This document shows positions 10,194 to 17,083 of a stretch of 64,000 nucleotides of DNA, piece after piece. Positions within the stretch are counted from its first letter, which is position 1; every line of letters starts with the position of its first letter. The notes under the pieces were generated by a model that saw nothing but the letters and a program-made list of their open reading frames with translations, had not been told where the DNA came from and made no database searches. The position numbers and the translations under genes are program-made. The DNA comes from Zhongshania aquatica (lineage in GTDB: Bacteria > Pseudomonadota > Gammaproteobacteria > Pseudomonadales > Spongiibacteraceae). Where the stretch lies: the NCBI RefSeq assembly GCF_027257955.1, contig NZ_JANZNQ010000011.1:1-64000 (forward strand), in the 5' to 3' direction.

Positions 10194-10208
10194 GAAATGG
10201 AGTTGACG

Positions 10209-12020
10209 ATGAGCAAAGATAAAGCTGTTCTGATTACTGATGTAACCCTGCGTGATGGCCACCAGTCGTTATTGGCGACCCGTATGCGCACCGAAGATAT
10301 GTTGCCGGTGTGTGCCGAACTGGACGCTATTGGATTTTGGTCGCTGGAAGTCTGGGGTGGCGCAACCTTTGACGCCTGTGTGCGTTTTCTAAAAGAAGAT
10401 CCTTGGGAACGTCTGCGCAAACTGCGCGAGGCCCTGCCGAACACCAAATTACAAATGTTGGTACGCGGTCAAAACCTGCTGGGTTACCGGCATTATGCCG
10501 ACGACGTTGTGGAGGCGTTCATTCAAAAATCCGCTGACAACGGCATGGATATTTTCCGTGTATTTGACGCCATGAATGACGTGCGCAATTTGCAAACCGC
10601 CGTCGCCGCCGTGAAAAAGTCGGGCAAGCATGCTCAGGGCACTATTTGTTATACGACCAGTCCGGTGCATACCACGGCTAAATTTGTTCAGCAGGCTAAG
10701 GACATGGTGGCGCTGGGTGTCGACTCCATCGCCATTAAGGACATGGCCGGCCTGTTAACCCCAATGGCGACCTCCGAGTTGGTTAGCGCGCTCAAAGACA
10801 CCGTCGATGTGCCATTGGCACTGCACTCGCACATGACTTCTGGGCTCGCCGGTTTGTGTCAGTTAAAGGCGATTGAAGCGGGCATCGACATTATTGATAC
10901 GGCCATGTCTGCATTTGCCAACGGCACTAGTCATCCGGCGACAGAAACAATGGTTGCTGCCTTAAAAGGCACACCGAGAGATTCCGGTTTGGATTTACCT
11001 GCTCTGCAGGAAATCGCTGCGCAGCTCTGGGAAGTGCGTAAGAAATATCATCAATTTGAAAGTGAGTTTACCCGCGAAGACGTAAGTGTGCAGATTAACC
11101 AAGTGCCCGGCGGCATGATGTCTAACCTCGCGAATCAGCTCAAAGAGCAAGGCGCCTTGAATCGCATTGGCGATGTGTTTGCTGAAATCCCCGCCGTGCG
11201 TAAAGACCTCGGCTACCCGCCATTGGTAACACCAACCTCACAGATTGTCGGCACCCAAGCGGTGATGAATATACTGGCAGACAAACGTTATACAACCATT
11301 ACTAACGAAGTGAAGCGTTACCTGCAAGGCCACTACGGTGCGGCACCGGCGGAGGTGGATAAAGACCTGCGTGCTCGTGCGATTGGCAGTGAAGACGTTA
11401 TTGATGTGCGTCCTGCCGATTTGTTATCCCCTGAACTGGCAAAACTTCGCAAAGAAGTCGGTGAACTAGCCAAATCAGAAGAAGACGTGCTGACCTACGC
11501 GATGTTCCCAGATTTGGGCCGCGCATTTTTAAGCGAGCGCGAAGCTGGCACCTTGGTCCCTGAGGTTCTCGAACCTGTCGGTCAATCCACTCGCCCTGTT
11601 AGTGAAGGTGGTGTTCCCACTGAGTTTGTTATCGATGTGCACGGCGAAAGTTACCAAGTGGCGATTACCGGCGTCGGTATAAAAGGCGCGGGCAAACGTC
11701 ATATCTACATGACACTTGATGGCATGCCTGAAGAGGTCGTTTTCGAAGCGCTAAATGAATATAAAGCTGAAGGCGCCAGCAGCCGCAAATCCGCCAGTAA
11801 ACCCGGCCACGTTAGTACCAATATGCCGGGCAATATTGTCGACGTATTGGTGGCTGTGGGCGATACCGTTAAGGTCGGGCAGGCTGTGCTGGTTACCGAA
11901 GCCATGAAGATGGAAGCGGAAGTACAAGCCCCCATTAGCGGCAAAGTGAAAGAGATCTTTGTTAAGAAGGGTGACCGTGTAACGCCGGGTGAGGTATTGA
12001 TTGAGATAGAGGCAGTGTGA
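10209..12020 (+). CDS. pycB: Pyruvate carboxylase subunit B / OadA-like carboxyltransferase with biotin domain
   Basis: The ATG at 10209 has GGAG six bases upstream and is preferred over the ATG at 10197, giving about 603 residues. The carboxyltransferase TIM barrel starts with T-D-V-T-L-R-D-G-H-Q-S and has the metal-binding H-S-H-M-T-S-G-L-A segment. A conserved PYC/OAD middle domain follows and a biotinyl domain ends the protein with E-A-M-K-M-E, biotin on about K567. It transfers CO2 from biotin to pyruvate. No beta/gamma OAD membrane subunits follow, which supports pyruvate carboxylase over sodium-pumping oxaloacetate decarboxylase. Confidence 0.93.
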   Translation: MSKDKAVLITDVTLRDGHQSLLATRMRTEDMLPVCAELDAIGFWSLEVWGGATFDACVRFLKEDPWERLRKLREALPNTKLQMLVRGQNLLGYRHYADDVVEAFIQKSADNGMDIFRVFDAMNDVRNLQTAVAAVKKSGKHAQGTICYTTSPVHTTAKFVQQAKDMVALGVDSIAIKDMAGLLTPMATSELVSALKDTVDVPLALHSHMTSGLAGLCQLKAIEAGIDIIDTAMSAFANGTSHPATETMVAALKGTPRDSGLDLPALQEIAAQLWEVRKKYHQFESEFTREDVSVQINQVPGGMMSNLANQLKEQGALNRIGDVFAEIPAVRKDLGYPPLVTPTSQIVGTQAVMNILADKRYTTITNEVKRYLQGHYGAAPAEVDKDLRARAIGSEDVIDVRPADLLSPELAKLRKEVGELAKSEEDVLTYAMFPDLGRAFLSEREAGTLVPEVLEPVGQSTRPVSEGGVPTEFVIDVHGESYQVAITGVGIKGAGKRHIYMTLDGMPEEVVFEALNEYKAEGASSRKSASKPGHVSTNMPGNIVDVLVAVGDTVKVGQAVLVTEAMKMEAEVQAPISGKVKEIFVKKGDRVTPGEVLIEIEAV

Positions 12021-12219: not shown

Positions 12220-13917
12220 ATGGATTTCCCTAGAATTCTGCTCGCCTCAGTGCTGTGTTTTTCAACGCTGGGTATAACTGCGTGCGATGGTAATAAAAAT
12301 AGTAGTAATGGCGGTGGGGGTAGCAATACCCCCCCTACAGTTGAGGAGCCATCTTCAAGTGCTGCTGTATCTAGTGAAAAAGCTAATATCGCCTTGTATG
12401 GTGATATCCCAGAGGATAAAACAAAAGAGGTTGGAGAAAATCAACCTTCATTATTACTGGATGATGACGATCTAGAATACGCCGGCTTTGGGATGGCTTT
12501 TGCTCAGCCTGAAGCGGCTGAGACAGCGGTGGCCCGTGCAAATGCGGATACCTCTGATATTCAAGATGACGTTGACGCCAAGGTGTCAATTGTGACGGCT
12601 GCCTTAGTCAACGATGGCGCCAGTGTTAACCAGCTTGTAAATAAAAGCGCGGCTGGTATTGAAGCGGCGGTCGCGATTGTCGTTTTGGATGTTCAGTATA
12701 ATTCTGGTGGTCGCAGTAGCGCTGATTTACGAAATACTTTATTGGCTGAATTAGGTTCTGATGCCGACATAGCTGTGCTTCCGCTTGGCAGCGGTAGCGG
12801 AAGAGAATTCCGCGTGTCACTTGCATTCTGGAAAGTTGATGAGGATCTGTTTACTTGGTTAGCGGTATTTTCTAACGGTTTTGCAGAGCAAGTTAAAGCT
12901 GCCTACGGAGACGTTAATAGTGGCGTAGCCGTTACGTCGGCCAGGGGCGCGACGAGTTTTGTAGCGGCTAGCCAATCCTTTACCCAAGTGGAAGACGCAA
13001 ATAACGCAGCGGATATTTTATGGGTTATTGATAATTCTGGTTCTATGTCGGAGGAGCAGGAAAATCTTGGCAATGGTATAGATCAATTTTTTGATAGTTT
13101 AAATGCTGCGGGACTTGATTTCCGGTTGGCGGTAACAACCACCGACGGTTCAGATTGCGAGGAATTGCTCTCGCTGCCAGATGATGCCTCCGCCAACTTT
13201 ATTTCGGCATCAACGCCTGACGGTAAGCTTCAGTGGGGCGATGACGTTAATGGTATTGCTAGGCCGGGAACTGGTGGAAGTGCGAATGAAACCGGTTTTT
13301 ATTGCGCAGATAAGGTTGATTTGACCGGTTTTGACCGAGAGTCTGCGCCAAATATTGTCGTGTTCGTATCTGATGAGCCAGAGAATGAAAGTGCATATCA
13401 GTCTTTTCCGTCAGGTAGCGATACTGACTATGATCCGCGGGATTTTAATACCTATAAACAAGCGTTTATCGATAGCGGCGCGACATATTTTGCAATCTCC
13501 GGTCCTTCGTCAACAATACGCCCAACATTTGCTGATCCTACTCCTTCATTCACTGTCACTGATTTTAATTGCTCCGGGGAAGGTGGAACGGCATCCGGTG
13601 GGGCGCATTTTAGAGAAATTGCCTCATTAACGGGTGGAAGCTCCGCATCTATCTGCGCACCGTCTGCATCGTGGAGTGTGATGTACGATCAGATCATTCA
13701 GGCCGCAACAGGCTTAGCGAGCAGCTTTAAATTGGATTTCTCTCCTTTGGCTAGCTCGGTAGTTGTGAAAGTAAATGGTGTTGAGGTAAGTCGAGATGTG
13801 TCTCACAGCGACGGCTTTGATGTTTTATTTGGCAGCGAAGAGGCGTCTATTGTGTTTTATGGTCAGGCCATACCAGGTGCGGGAGACGAAATAGTCGTAT
13901 CTTACGATCATATTTAG
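12220..13917 (+). CDS. VWA-domain lipoprotein of unknown function
   Basis: The 565-residue protein has a lipobox I-T-A-C ending at C22, then a Ser/Gly/Asn-rich linker. A middle region (about 50-250) has no match I recognise. A von Willebrand A domain starts with D271-N-S-G-S (V-I-D-N-S-G-S-M-S), the metal-ion-dependent adhesion site, and contains V-F-V-S-D-E-P-E-N near residue 380. Several Cys residues may form extracytoplasmic disulfides. The C-terminal 60 residues look like a small beta domain. A cell-surface ligand-binding or adhesion role is plausible but unproven. The gene stands alone, followed by the candidate Fur-controlled sRNA. Confidence 0.8.
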   Translation: MDFPRILLASVLCFSTLGITACDGNKNSSNGGGGSNTPPTVEEPSSSAAVSSEKANIALYGDIPEDKTKEVGENQPSLLLDDDDLEYAGFGMAFAQPEAAETAVARANADTSDIQDDVDAKVSIVTAALVNDGASVNQLVNKSAAGIEAAVAIVVLDVQYNSGGRSSADLRNTLLAELGSDADIAVLPLGSGSGREFRVSLAFWKVDEDLFTWLAVFSNGFAEQVKAAYGDVNSGVAVTSARGATSFVAASQSFTQVEDANNAADILWVIDNSGSMSEEQENLGNGIDQFFDSLNAAGLDFRLAVTTTDGSDCEELLSLPDDASANFISASTPDGKLQWGDDVNGIARPGTGGSANETGFYCADKVDLTGFDRESAPNIVVFVSDEPENESAYQSFPSGSDTDYDPRDFNTYKQAFIDSGATYFAISGPSSTIRPTFADPTPSFTVTDFNCSGEGGTASGGAHFREIASLTGGSSASICAPSASWSVMYDQIIQAATGLASSFKLDFSPLASSVVVKVNGVEVSRDVSHSDGFDVLFGSEEASIVFYGQAIPGAGDEIVVSYDHI

Positions 13918-13925
13918 TAGGGGGG

Positions 13926-13954
13926 TTGATATTTTAAATGATAACCATTATCAT
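13926..13954 (+). promoter_or_regulatory. Promoter with embedded Fur box
   Basis: TTGATA (13926-13931) and TATCAT (13949-13954) are spaced by 17 bp, a good sigma-70 promoter. Between and over the -10 lies TGATAACCATTATCA (13939-13953), matching the 7-1-7 Fur box TGATAATnATTATCA at all but one defined position and extended by flanking AAA/TTT. Fur-Fe binding there would block RNA polymerase. Both flanking protein genes end toward this site, so the promoter must serve something between them. Confidence 0.8.
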
Positions 13955-13960
13955 TTAAGT

Positions 13961-14059
13961 CAGGTCGGGGTTGTGCTCTATGTGAGCCCCCATTTGCACG
14001 GTACCTCCCCGATTCTCTCCAATTTTCCCCGTAATCAGCATTGAGTACGGGGCTTTTTT
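13961..14059 (+). ncRNA. Candidate Fur-repressed small RNA (RyhB/PrrF-type)
   Basis: A predicted start about 7 nt after the -10 gives a transcript of about 99 nt ending at a Rho-independent terminator: CCCCGTA (14027-14033) pairs with TACGGGG (14046-14052) and is followed by C then six T residues. The body has a 5' G-rich segment (TCGGGG) that can pair with CCCCGA, and then C/U-rich patches near 14003-14030 complementary to GGAG-type ribosome binding sites, as in iron-stress sRNAs that silence iron-protein mRNAs. There is no credible ORF. I do not recognise the sequence as RyhB or PrrF, so it would be an analogue found by architecture. Confidence 0.7.
14027..14059 (+). terminator. Terminator of the candidate sRNA
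   Basis: A 7-bp perfect GC-rich stem with a 12-nt loop is followed by a T-tract (six T, G, four T). It lies 110 bp beyond the VWA stop and could also end read-through from that gene. Confidence 0.8.
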
Positions 14060-14154: not shown

Positions 14155-14580
14155 TTATAGGTGATTTTTGCCGTTAATACTTACGGTTAACCACATGTCC
14201 TGCCATCGCCTGTATTTATCGTCGGGACTAAGCTGCTTGGGTGAAACGGGAATGCTCCGCTGATGGTTTACCTCGGATAGAAATGTCGCATTTACGGCGC
14301 CTTTAAGGCCGTCCGTAAATGGGTAAACTACGGCGACCAGTGAGCAGCAGCGAGCGCAGCTTAAAAATAAAGCCTGCTCAGAGCCTTGTTTAGTGATATT
14401 TAGCGGTGAAAATGCGGTTATTTGAAGGCGGCCATCAGGGTCAGATAAATAGGAGGCGTCGCGTGAAAGGCAAAAATCGCAGTCGCAGGCTCTCGGAGTG
14501 TAGTGATCAACGTGCTTGGGGAGGCTAAGCGAGAGTTGAACCTCGCTACATTGACAATGGCCGGCGAATTTGTGGCTCAT
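14155..14580 (-). CDS. GFA/CENP-V-type zinc protein
   Basis: The 141-residue protein has the cysteine layout of the glutathione-dependent formaldehyde-activating (GFA) fold: G-H-C-Q-C near residue 8, C-D-C-D-F-C near 33 and C-A-R-C-C near 76. These Cys residues bind zinc in the family. Most such paralogues have no proven formaldehyde activity. It lies 26 bp downstream of a parvulin gene on the same strand and may be cotranscribed with it. Confidence 0.8.
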   Translation of the reverse strand: MSHKFAGHCQCSEVQLSLSLPKHVDHYTPRACDCDFCLSRDASYLSDPDGRLQITAFSPLNITKQGSEQALFLSCARCCSLVAVVYPFTDGLKGAVNATFLSEVNHQRSIPVSPKQLSPDDKYRRWQDMWLTVSINGKNHL

Positions 14581-15028: not shown

Positions 15029-17083
15029 TTAGAATTTATAGCCCATTGAAAATCGAACTGTGCGCGGCTCAATGACGTGATAGTGGATATCGTCGGTAGC
15101 TACGCCTGCCGGTTCACTCGCCAGGCGCGAGGCATAAAAATAATCGATATCGTGATCGTCACTGTCGCTAAGATTGAGAACATCGGCCTTGAAGACCCAG
15201 TTGCTCATGCGGTAACCGGCGCGCAGATTCCAAATTGTGCTGTCGTCAGATTTGACGGAGCCGTCCTCTACCAAGGGTCTTTCGCCGAAGTGACGCACAC
15301 GCAGACTGCCGAACCAGCCACTGCTGAAATCAGCATTTAAGCCAGCCTGAAAAACATTCTTAATGGCGCCGGGAATTTTATTTCCTTCTGGAGCGGATTC
15401 AGTAAATTTTGAATTCGTATAGGCGTACTCGATATCCAGGCTTATCTGGTCGGTAAAGTGGTAGTAGCCTGTGATTTCAATGCCGTTTCTTTCTGACGCG
15501 CGACTTGGCTCGGTATTGCCAGCGTCGCCGACAAATAGCAGTTCGCTATCTAGTTCTAAGGTCCACAGTGAGATGGACGTGTTGATACGATCGCTGATGA
15601 AACCACGGGTACCGACCTCGTATCCCAGTGAGCGCACCAGGGGGTCTACGCTATGGATGACACTGCCGTCAGTTGGATCTAGCCGAATCGTTGTGCCGCG
15701 TGCGTCATTTGAGTGGAAGCCTTGCCCAGCGGAAATATAGCCTTCCCATTCGTCATTAAAGGTATAAATCAGGCTGGCTTTTACAGAGCTAATGCTGTCG
15801 TCTGATGTGCCGCCGTTGCCACTCAGGTCGATATTATTAATATTAATGCCGGTTTTGTCGTCGACATCAAAATCATAGTAATCGTATCGCGCTCCCAGCA
15901 CGCTGCGCAGCGAATCAGTCCATGTGATGCGATTTTCCCAGTACAAGCCGATGCTCGATTCTGTTACTTGGTCGCTGCGAATCGCCCCCAGTCGCTGACG
16001 CGCTTGGCTACGATAAAGTCCAACTTCATTGATATCATCGACTCGGAGGTCGCCGCCGAATTTATTGCTCATGGTGCGGCCAGCTAATGCGCCCTCTAAA
16101 AGGTAGGCAAGTTGGCCACCATAGATGGTGCGGTTGTCGACTTGTTCGAACTGGTCGCCATTGGTTTCATCGTCGAGAAAGTAGGTGAAGTTGGACCACA
16201 AATTGAGATCGTAGTCGATGACATACGCTGAGCCTACCCATTTGCCAAGCTCCAAATTGGCGTTCAGGCTGTAGCGACTTGATTCGCCGCCGACGGTTTT
16301 GTCGATGGAGCCTAATTCGTCAATAATTCCCTGTTCTACCGCGCGTGAGGGAATTTGATCTGCGCTATTCCAGCTGTTGTCATAGGCCATGACGGTGAAA
16401 CTAAGCTGGCCGTCTTCAAGCGGTATGGCGTGTTTTAGGAAGACGTTTATCTTGTCCAGGTCTTCTTCGATATCAGACCAAGGACCGTCATAGCGATTGC
16501 CTTCAACCGCGATGGTGGTGGTTCCGCCCCCTATTTGCAGGCTGTTCATTGCCAGCACACGGTAAAAGTTGTCTTCACCTAGGGTGAGTTCGAGCAAACC
16601 TTGCTCTAGCGATCTAGTGGTGCTGATTTGCGCGCCGCCGGCGCCGCTGAAATCACCGACATCAGCGTAGTAAGCGCCTTTTTTATAGGCTAGCTGGGAC
16701 ACGACTTCGGGAATGAGAAAATTGAGATCAGAATAGCCCTGGCCGTGACCATGGGTGCGCATATTGACGGGCATACCGTCTACCGACGTGGCAAAATCAG
16801 TTCCGTGGTCCAGGTTGAATCCGCGCAGAAAATACTGGTTGGCTTTGCCGGTGCCGCTGTGTTGGGTGACGACCATGCCTGGCACCAGCTCTAGTACTTC
16901 GCCGGTGCGCAGAAGTGGCCGAAGCGAAATTTCCTGCTGGCCGACAATACCCTCTGATGCAGATACGGCTTCGCCGACGAGATTAATACGTCGTCCCTCT
17001 ACCTCAACTGTTTCTATTTTTTGTTCAGCGGCGATAACTTGATTGCCACATAGTATTAATAAAACCCAAGCCAGCCTTTTCAT
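15029..17083 (-). CDS. TonB-dependent outer-membrane receptor
   Basis: The 684-residue protein has a signal peptide (about 1-18), a TonB-box-like V-E-V-E-G-R-R, a plug domain (G-E-V-L-E-L-V-P-G-M-V-V, F-L-R-G-F-N-L-D-H-G-T, V-D-G-M-P-V-N-M) and a long beta-barrel ending in F-S-M-G-Y-K-F. The plug has an H-T-H-G-H-G run (R-T-H-G-H-G-Q-G), a possible metal-binding feature. Substrate cannot be told from sequence. It is divergent from a BlaI/M56 regulatory pair, an unusual neighbour that may control it. No Fur box was found upstream. Confidence 0.9.
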   Translation of the reverse strand: MKRLAWVLLILCGNQVIAAEQKIETVEVEGRRINLVGEAVSASEGIVGQQEISLRPLLRTGEVLELVPGMVVTQHSGTGKANQYFLRGFNLDHGTDFATSVDGMPVNMRTHGHGQGYSDLNFLIPEVVSQLAYKKGAYYADVGDFSGAGGAQISTTRSLEQGLLELTLGEDNFYRVLAMNSLQIGGGTTTIAVEGNRYDGPWSDIEEDLDKINVFLKHAIPLEDGQLSFTVMAYDNSWNSADQIPSRAVEQGIIDELGSIDKTVGGESSRYSLNANLELGKWVGSAYVIDYDLNLWSNFTYFLDDETNGDQFEQVDNRTIYGGQLAYLLEGALAGRTMSNKFGGDLRVDDINEVGLYRSQARQRLGAIRSDQVTESSIGLYWENRITWTDSLRSVLGARYDYYDFDVDDKTGININNIDLSGNGGTSDDSISSVKASLIYTFNDEWEGYISAGQGFHSNDARGTTIRLDPTDGSVIHSVDPLVRSLGYEVGTRGFISDRINTSISLWTLELDSELLFVGDAGNTEPSRASERNGIEITGYYHFTDQISLDIEYAYTNSKFTESAPEGNKIPGAIKNVFQAGLNADFSSGWFGSLRVRHFGERPLVEDGSVKSDDSTIWNLRAGYRMSNWVFKADVLNLSDSDDHDIDYFYASRLASEPAGVATDDIHYHVIEPRTVRFSMGYKF

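Follow-up and report, generated by a model that had tools for sequence, protein, structure and literature searches.

In the genome of Zhongshania aquatica, a promoter overlapped by a Fur box is situated between two genes that end towards each other, which raises the question of what such a promoter transcribes. A sequence-only reading of the 64,000-nucleotide stretch of DNA analysed here (contig NZ_JANZNQ010000011.1, positions 1 to 64,000; hereafter the window) had proposed an undescribed Fur-controlled small RNA (sRNA) at 13926..14059, and both these coordinates and the claimed convergence of the flanking genes have proved right. On the plus strand, an open reading frame (ORF) that appears lipoprotein-like by eye and has no Pfam match (12220..13917) ends 9 nt before the −35 element, and on the far side an ORF of the minus strand, also without a Pfam match (14155..14580), ends at 14155. 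Further upstream lies a plus-strand gene (10197..12020) which we take, from its sequence, to be oadA-like (oxaloacetate decarboxylase / pyruvate carboxylase subunit B type) and which is the syntenic anchor of the sRNA in the genus. The lipoprotein-like ORF follows oadA only in the window, G007 and G010, and in the 12 other sRNA loci the RNA directly follows oadA; such a gene has been gained or lost next to the sRNA, and the sRNA persists in two of the three loci concerned. The third ORF past the sRNA, on the opposite strand (15029-17083, minus), encodes a TonB-dependent receptor (PF00593, PF07715).

The promoter consists of a −35 element, TTGATA (13926..13931, plus strand), and a −10 element, TATCAT (13949..13954), with a spacing of 17 nt, and matches 10 of the 12 sigma-70 consensus bases; alone, promoter-like sites of such quality are not rare (3 observed in 2 kb, 3.1 expected). 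The Fur box TGATAACCATTATCA (13939..13953, plus strand), of the 7-1-7 type, overlaps the −10 element and matches 13 of the 14 defined bases, or 14 of 15 when the N is counted, of what we take to be the Fur consensus, in agreement with the 14/15 match originally noted. It is the sole site in the 64-kb window with one mismatch or fewer, and sites with up to three mismatches number 7 against 3.5 expected, a count reached by 9 of 100 shuffles. Comparison of homologous loci in relatives demonstrates that at least 11 of the 14 bases are retained in 13 of 14 homologues, the exception being G005 with 9/14, and that a TTG at −35 with the 17-nt spacing is present in 12 of 14 as chosen by the script, G001 permitting the same equally by eye; promoter and Fur box together are recognisable in 13 of the 14 loci, window included. 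Because the box overlaps the −10 element and is kept to this extent among the homologues, Fur control of the sRNA promoter is strongly predicted.

The predicted transcript, with its 5' end placed from the −10 element, extends over approximately 98 nt (13962..14059, plus strand), a length similar to that of RyhB, which is about 100 nt. Its predicted body comprises two hairpins separated by an open linker. Hairpin 1 (13963..14014, plus strand) carries the C-rich apical loop CCCCCA (13987..13992), a possible second pairing site; the single-stranded linker CUCUCCAAUUUU (14015..14026) begins with the invariant hexamer CUCUCC (14015-14020), which is present in the linker of all 14 homologues; and the second hairpin is, as previously proposed, an intrinsic terminator (14027..14059), with its stem at 14027-14052 and its U-run at 14054-14059. 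The 103-nt body folds more stably than its shuffled versions (z −3.16; 1 of 200 as good). A simple scanner of promoters and terminators listed no terminator at 14027-14059, apparently because loops of more than 8 nt are disallowed there. A run of at least five C residues is found in the apical region of all 14 homologues, with a predicted unpaired probability of 0.89-1.0 (1.0 in the window).

Beyond the window, a DNA search of 57 genomes identified the block at 83-85% identity in four congeners, and such conservation among relatives indicates that it is more than a chance assembly of signals. Reading of 21 genomes of the family located the element after oadA in 14 of the 18 genomes of the genus, the window's included and one copy decayed, all 14 carrying the fold and the terminator at this one gene junction; the persistence of Fur box (13/14) and terminator (14/18) in relatives is what the original proposal had anticipated. 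Only a remnant near the terminator is left in G010, and the element was not found in G002, G009 and G015 (420 nt after oadA; no Fur-linked match among those read), nor in three sister-genus genomes (420 nt after oadA; in G020, 278 nt up to the contig end). The homologues form a window-like group, clade A (G000, G008, G016, G003, G017, G005, G007), and a second group, clade B (G014, G004, G006, G011, G012, G013, G001), the latter not being one clade on the oadA tree, and the stems of the two groups share little sequence. The copy downstream of oadA in G005 (L065) is decaying, with a degraded Fur box and a linker predicted to be paired, and it keeps the terminator and the C-run.

A covariance model, R2, built solely from four distant relatives of clade B, finds the window's RNA at 25.4 bits at the right place and on the right strand in a search of 21 loci. 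In a 15-row alignment, 91.9% of the cells are paired, and both partners have changed in 20 of 26 pairs, among them 14 of the 15 in the main helix of hairpin 1. None of 500 shuffles was as high, and sliding the partners by one to three columns reduced pairing to 51% or less. The alignment was fitted to the covariance model, since RNAalifold on plain sequence alignments (7 and 14 rows) failed to align hairpin 1; the pair count therefore leans towards the model, although the contrast with the controls is large, and two of the 15 rows are a terminator without homology (L067) and an incomplete copy (L065). The comparison indicates that the stems drift in sequence while the fold is maintained by paired changes.

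The position of the element also permits another reading, in which it represents the 3' end of the oadA transcript (here that of the lipoprotein-like gene), namely a structured 3' UTR with its terminator and a fortuitous Fur box, and no independent iron-controlled RNA exists. The RNA does lie directly after oadA on the same strand in 12 of the 14 loci, and the terminator would end the oadA mRNA too; nevertheless, the interval from the stop codon to the RNA retains a Fur box and a promoter whose spacing is 17 nt, the block persists when another gene intervenes (window, G007), and the linker matches sodB and sdhC, as detailed below, which renders this reading highly improbable. The sRNA reading is supported by covariation and synteny, and the element is in all likelihood a real iron-controlled small RNA.

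Whether this RNA belongs to a described family can be judged from several comparisons. In the window, no match to an Rfam family attains the gathering score of that family, and permissive thresholds likewise assign the RNA to no family; RyhB (RF00057) is unmatched in the window at its gathering score and at E up to 10, and, when the relatives' loci are included, at E up to 5. The PrrF model (RF00444) gives only 17.1-17.2 bits on the window against a gathering score of 90, which places the RNA outside that family by its own threshold. No published work on a small RNA in Zhongshania was found among the papers searched, and the literature on Fur-regulated RNAs, as far as the available portions of the sources extend, covers RyhB, PrrF, NrrF, HrrF, BrrF, IsrR and others, this genus being absent among the matches listed. 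Within the scope of these searches, the description of the RNA as undescribed is supported.

The RNA could alternatively be a highly diverged PrrF, sharing common ancestry with the Pseudomonas iron RNAs and having drifted past recognition. PrrF1 and PrrF2 of Pseudomonas follow the same plan, with a Fur-box promoter, a 5' hairpin and a CUCC-bearing seed before the terminator (Rfam alignment); full-length matches to the PrrF model rise from 17.2 bits in the window to 26.7 bits in G006 and 35.4 bits in G011, the best among nine relatives' loci; and PrrF was found with strict filters in 32 of 194 genomes of the order. These scores nevertheless stay far under 90, the agreement resides mainly in the Fur box and terminator with the PrrF 5' hairpin unaligned (in the two alignments shown), and the sRNA differs from PrrF in its 5' hairpin, its seed and its locus after oadA. 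In the same 194-genome draw with strict filters, PrrF was found in no genome of the genus, at least seven of which are among the misses listed. Descent from PrrF is accordingly regarded as improbable.

Functional parallels exist as well. Both sdhC and sodB are named as confirmed targets of RyhB and PrrF (PMC7377471). The sRNA resembles RyhB of enterobacteria, Vibrio and Shewanella in its predicted Fur repression and in having sodB and sdhC as predicted targets, but differs from it in seed and fold. Similarly, IsrR of Staphylococcus is described as a Fur-controlled RNA whose single-stranded C-rich regions target the ribosome-binding sites of iron-protein mRNAs (PMC9410917); Fur control and exposed C-rich regions are also predicted for the RNA described here, in which these regions may likewise be directed towards ribosome-binding sites, whereas IsrR has three C-rich regions and three stem-loops before its terminator and belongs to another phylum. 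BrrF of Burkholderia, HrrF of Pasteurellaceae and NrrF of Neisseria are likewise lineage-specific iron-regulated sRNAs, although in other hosts and loci, and were compared with the present RNA in sequence via Rfam alone. BrrF and HrrF are reported as lacking sequence similarity to RyhB/PrrF, and sdh is named among the targets of BrrF and of NrrF (for the latter, PMC5586341). On the tests made, the best reading is that the sRNA would be a functional analogue of RyhB/PrrF forming a separate family, a member of neither.

The range of such a family was further assessed by an order-wide search with R2 (390 genomes, strict filters), which returned nine matches outside the genus at E up to 0.01, and the seven of these that were read with 80 nt upstream (all but L092 and L094) had no Fur box by eye. 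At the same threshold the search missed the known copies of the window, G005, G007 and G016, and G003 is not among the matches listed, so that the search speaks neither for nor against members of the family outside the genus. Matches to model R1 away from oadA were also read (L039, L040, L042, L043 and L045-L047, leaving out L044 and L048-L055) and were rejected, as they looked like bare terminators or unrelated sequence. The RNA has so far been seen solely in this genus.

Five target candidates were selected from knowledge of RyhB/PrrF-type regulators, namely sdhC, sodB, acnA, acnB and leuC, and were compared with a background of 391 genes from 464 kb of the window's genome. The start codons of the background were picked by a script favouring strong ribosome-binding sites, those of the five candidates were set by hand, and the opening cost in the pairing energies refers to the mRNA site only, not to that of the sRNA. 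Among these candidates sodB, encoding the iron superoxide dismutase, fits well. Its ribosome-binding site in the window's genome reads CAGGAGAGAATCAC-ATG, in which GGAGAGAAUC is the exact 10-nt complement of GAUUCUCUCC in the sRNA (14011-14020), so that the computed pairing joins a seed to the ribosome-binding site of an iron protein; the GAUU portion (14011-14014) belongs to the base-paired foot of hairpin 1, which would have to open. Pairing of the linker with the region −35..+15 of sodB reaches −18.0 kcal/mol, which none of the 391 background genes equals, and with the mRNA-site opening cost it amounts to −16.2, compared with −10.9 for the best background gene; over the whole range −150..+30, before opening costs, two of the 391 genes equal sodB.

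Within the genus, sodB was found in 17 of the 18 genomes, the exception being the 84%-complete G003. The complement between linker and sodB extends to 11 nt in G008, G016, G017 and G007. In clade B, where the site is GGAGAGAC, contiguous pairing with the RNA spans 7 to 9 nt (7 nt in four genomes), with a matching G-C exchange in G014, G004 and G011 and a mismatch at that position in the other four. The sequence GGAGAGAAUC alone is no proof of selection for pairing, because three sRNA-less genomes (G010, G002, G015) keep it, while G009 has another sequence; likewise, conservation of GGAGAG in sodB is partly expected, as it is itself a good ribosome-binding site.

The second candidate, sdhC, is present in 18 of the 18 genomes, starts with GTG, and is preceded by a leader that measures 129-164 nt when counted from the predicted promoter. 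The motif GGAGAG stands at −77 to −82 relative to the start codon in all 13 genomes with an intact RNA and is absent in all five in which the RNA is missing or decayed (G010, G002, G015, G009, G005). In the minimum-energy fold of the leader the motif lies in a hairpin in 12 of these 13 genomes, not in G004, and the stems of this hairpin change in a paired manner by eye. By eye, G010, G002 and G015 retain a similar stem with another loop; G005 reads UAGAGAA, and G009 contains nothing similar. The poor Fur box of G005 had been noted before sdhC was compared, and this genome shows degradation in the Fur box (9/14), in the accessibility of the linker (unpaired at 0.09) and in the sdhC loop alike. 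The five GGAGAG-less genomes occupy three places on the oadA tree (G015 with G010 and G002; G009; G005), of which strongly supported branches force only two changes of presence label, as a minimum; G009 may never have had the RNA. Outside the genus, GGAGAG occurs in none of 14 sdhC leaders within 230 nt upstream of the SdhC match.

Energetically, the raw duplex of linker and sdhC reaches −21.5 kcal/mol in the window's genome, equalled by only one of 391 background genes, and becomes ordinary once the cost of opening the stem is included (104 of 391); the case for sdhC thus rests on the shared absence of site and sRNA, and pairing would be of loop to linker. Only six contiguous pairs are available at the sdhC loop in G006, G012, G013, G001 and G004. 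In only 9 of 14 genomes does the sdhC leader pair better with the linker of the same genome than with the average linker (worse in G005, G014, G004, G006 and G001), and the leader of the sRNA-less G009 still reaches −18.3 with some foreign linker.

A GGA in a hairpin loop resembles the sites of CsrA/RsmA, and the predicted sdhC loop measures 4 to 8 nt in most genomes, so that the GGAGAG loop might instead be bound by a CsrA/RsmA-like protein and accompany the sRNA by coincidence or through an indirect effect. However, GGAGAG is gone in exactly the five genomes whose sRNA is missing or decayed, and other parts of the leader stay there; this explanation is consequently considered very unlikely.

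The same motif may also bear on translation of the leader. In 11 of 13 genomes, a leader frame has an NTG codon 4 to 10 nt after GGAGAG, which is TTG or GTG in seven of them and CTG in the other four, where no other start codon follows the motif; DPLPLNR-like codons come next. The stop codon of this frame overlaps the sdhC start in G000, G014 and G006; with G001, which lacks a start codon, the genomes whose frame terminates on the sdhC start number 4 of 18. In two further genomes the frame runs slightly beyond that point, and in the rest it stops earlier; two of the genomes that carry the sRNA offer no start codon for it. Translational coupling through this frame is considered a possible route to sdhC and not the main claim. 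As separate observations, the sdhC leader has by eye no clear ribosome-binding site before its GTG (e.g. L126, G000, 1363-1500), a CCACU...AGUGUGG pairing is predicted in many leader folds, and the DPLP-NR codons are kept in 17 of 18 genomes.

For the remaining candidates the outcome is different. The genes presumed from their protein sequences to be acnA, acnB and leuC, all matching PF00330, rank in the bulk of the 391-gene background as targets of either linker or apical loop, and were rejected. Of the targets initially suggested (sdh, sod and acn), sodB thus fits by pairing and sdhC by its phylogenetic pattern, and aconitase does not fit. The approximately 100 nt upstream of acnB (ATCGAT...ATCGAT, CCCGG repeats) look, in their own right, highly conserved by eye across the 17 genomes of the genus that were read, whether or not the sRNA is present (e.g. 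L283 of G000, L284-L299), and may constitute a cis-acting RNA element. Among genes with GGAGAGAAT before an ATG in five clade-A genomes, sodB recurs in 5/5, a Bac_globin-like protein in 3/5 and rubredoxin (PF00301) in 2/5, and no other protein recurs by eye. The globin scores 18.1 bits, below the Pfam cut-off of 21, has a match in 12 of 18 genus genomes and none in that of the window, and its pairing is weak in three genomes of clade B, which makes it a weak lead as a target. The exact 11-nt complement of the clade-B linker, AATACGGAGAG, occurs, apart from the sRNA gene itself, at three sites in the seven genomes, of which G013, G004 and G001 have one each; as these sites are not recurrent, the seven genomes give no sign of a shared target that would form a long perfect duplex 3' of CUCUCC. 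A second near-perfect Fur palindrome was encountered elsewhere in the genome (G000:C19:84825-84848, L021; relatives L020, L022, L023, L008, L010), and the 100-130 nt that follow it are alike by eye in several congeners (AAAGACCG, CATTGACC, GCGAGACT).

The C/U-rich unpaired patches initially described as complementary to ribosome-binding sites are present: the linker CUCUCC shows predictable pairing, but the C-rich apical loop pairs with none of sodB, sdhC, acnA, acnB and leuC. Conservation of the C-run in 14 of 14 homologues and its predicted openness (0.89-1.0) might nevertheless mean that the main job of the RNA is performed by this loop on other mRNAs, in the manner of IsrR, whose C-rich regions are active (PMC9410917), with sodB and sdhC being side effects. 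As no target of the loop emerged among the five candidates, such a division of labour is judged unlikely.

The explanation that best accommodates these observations, and one held with high confidence, is a Fur-repressed, trans-acting, iron-sparing sRNA that acts on sodB and sdhC. With iron present, Fe-Fur would occupy the box over the −10 element and block transcription, and when iron is short, the transcript of about 98 nt would be produced and end at the terminator. Hairpin 1 and the terminator are predicted to hold CUCUCC single-stranded between them, allowing the linker and the opened foot of hairpin 1 to pair, by computation, with the sodB ribosome-binding site (GGAGAGAAUC), which would block translation of the iron superoxide dismutase. 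In the least certain step, the same linker may pair with the hairpin loop that presents GGAGAG some 80 nt ahead of the sdhC start codon; succinate dehydrogenase might then be lowered directly, by mRNA decay, or via the leader frame, if GGAGAG serves as its ribosome-binding site. The outcome would be iron sparing, as with RyhB and PrrF. A bolder version, which is tentatively raised and remains doubtful, is that a genus-specific iron RNA has replaced PrrF and controls sdhC through a dedicated loop that exists only with the RNA, is discarded when the RNA decays, and doubles as the ribosome-binding site of the leader frame, regulation proceeding by shutting off leader translation. Such control would be reminiscent of RyhB acting on uof-fur.

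Most likely, then, scarcity of iron induces an sRNA that turns off the iron superoxide dismutase as well as succinate dehydrogenase; the family of this RNA would be new, and its role one for which other bacteria provide precedents. It offers a candidate iron-sparing regulator for a marine genus in which PrrF was not found in the genomes searched, and it would be one more example of RNAs that look unrelated filling this role in different lineages. Furthermore, natural losses in which the sRNA and its putative target site are seen disappearing together make the target assignment testable by comparison of sister species.
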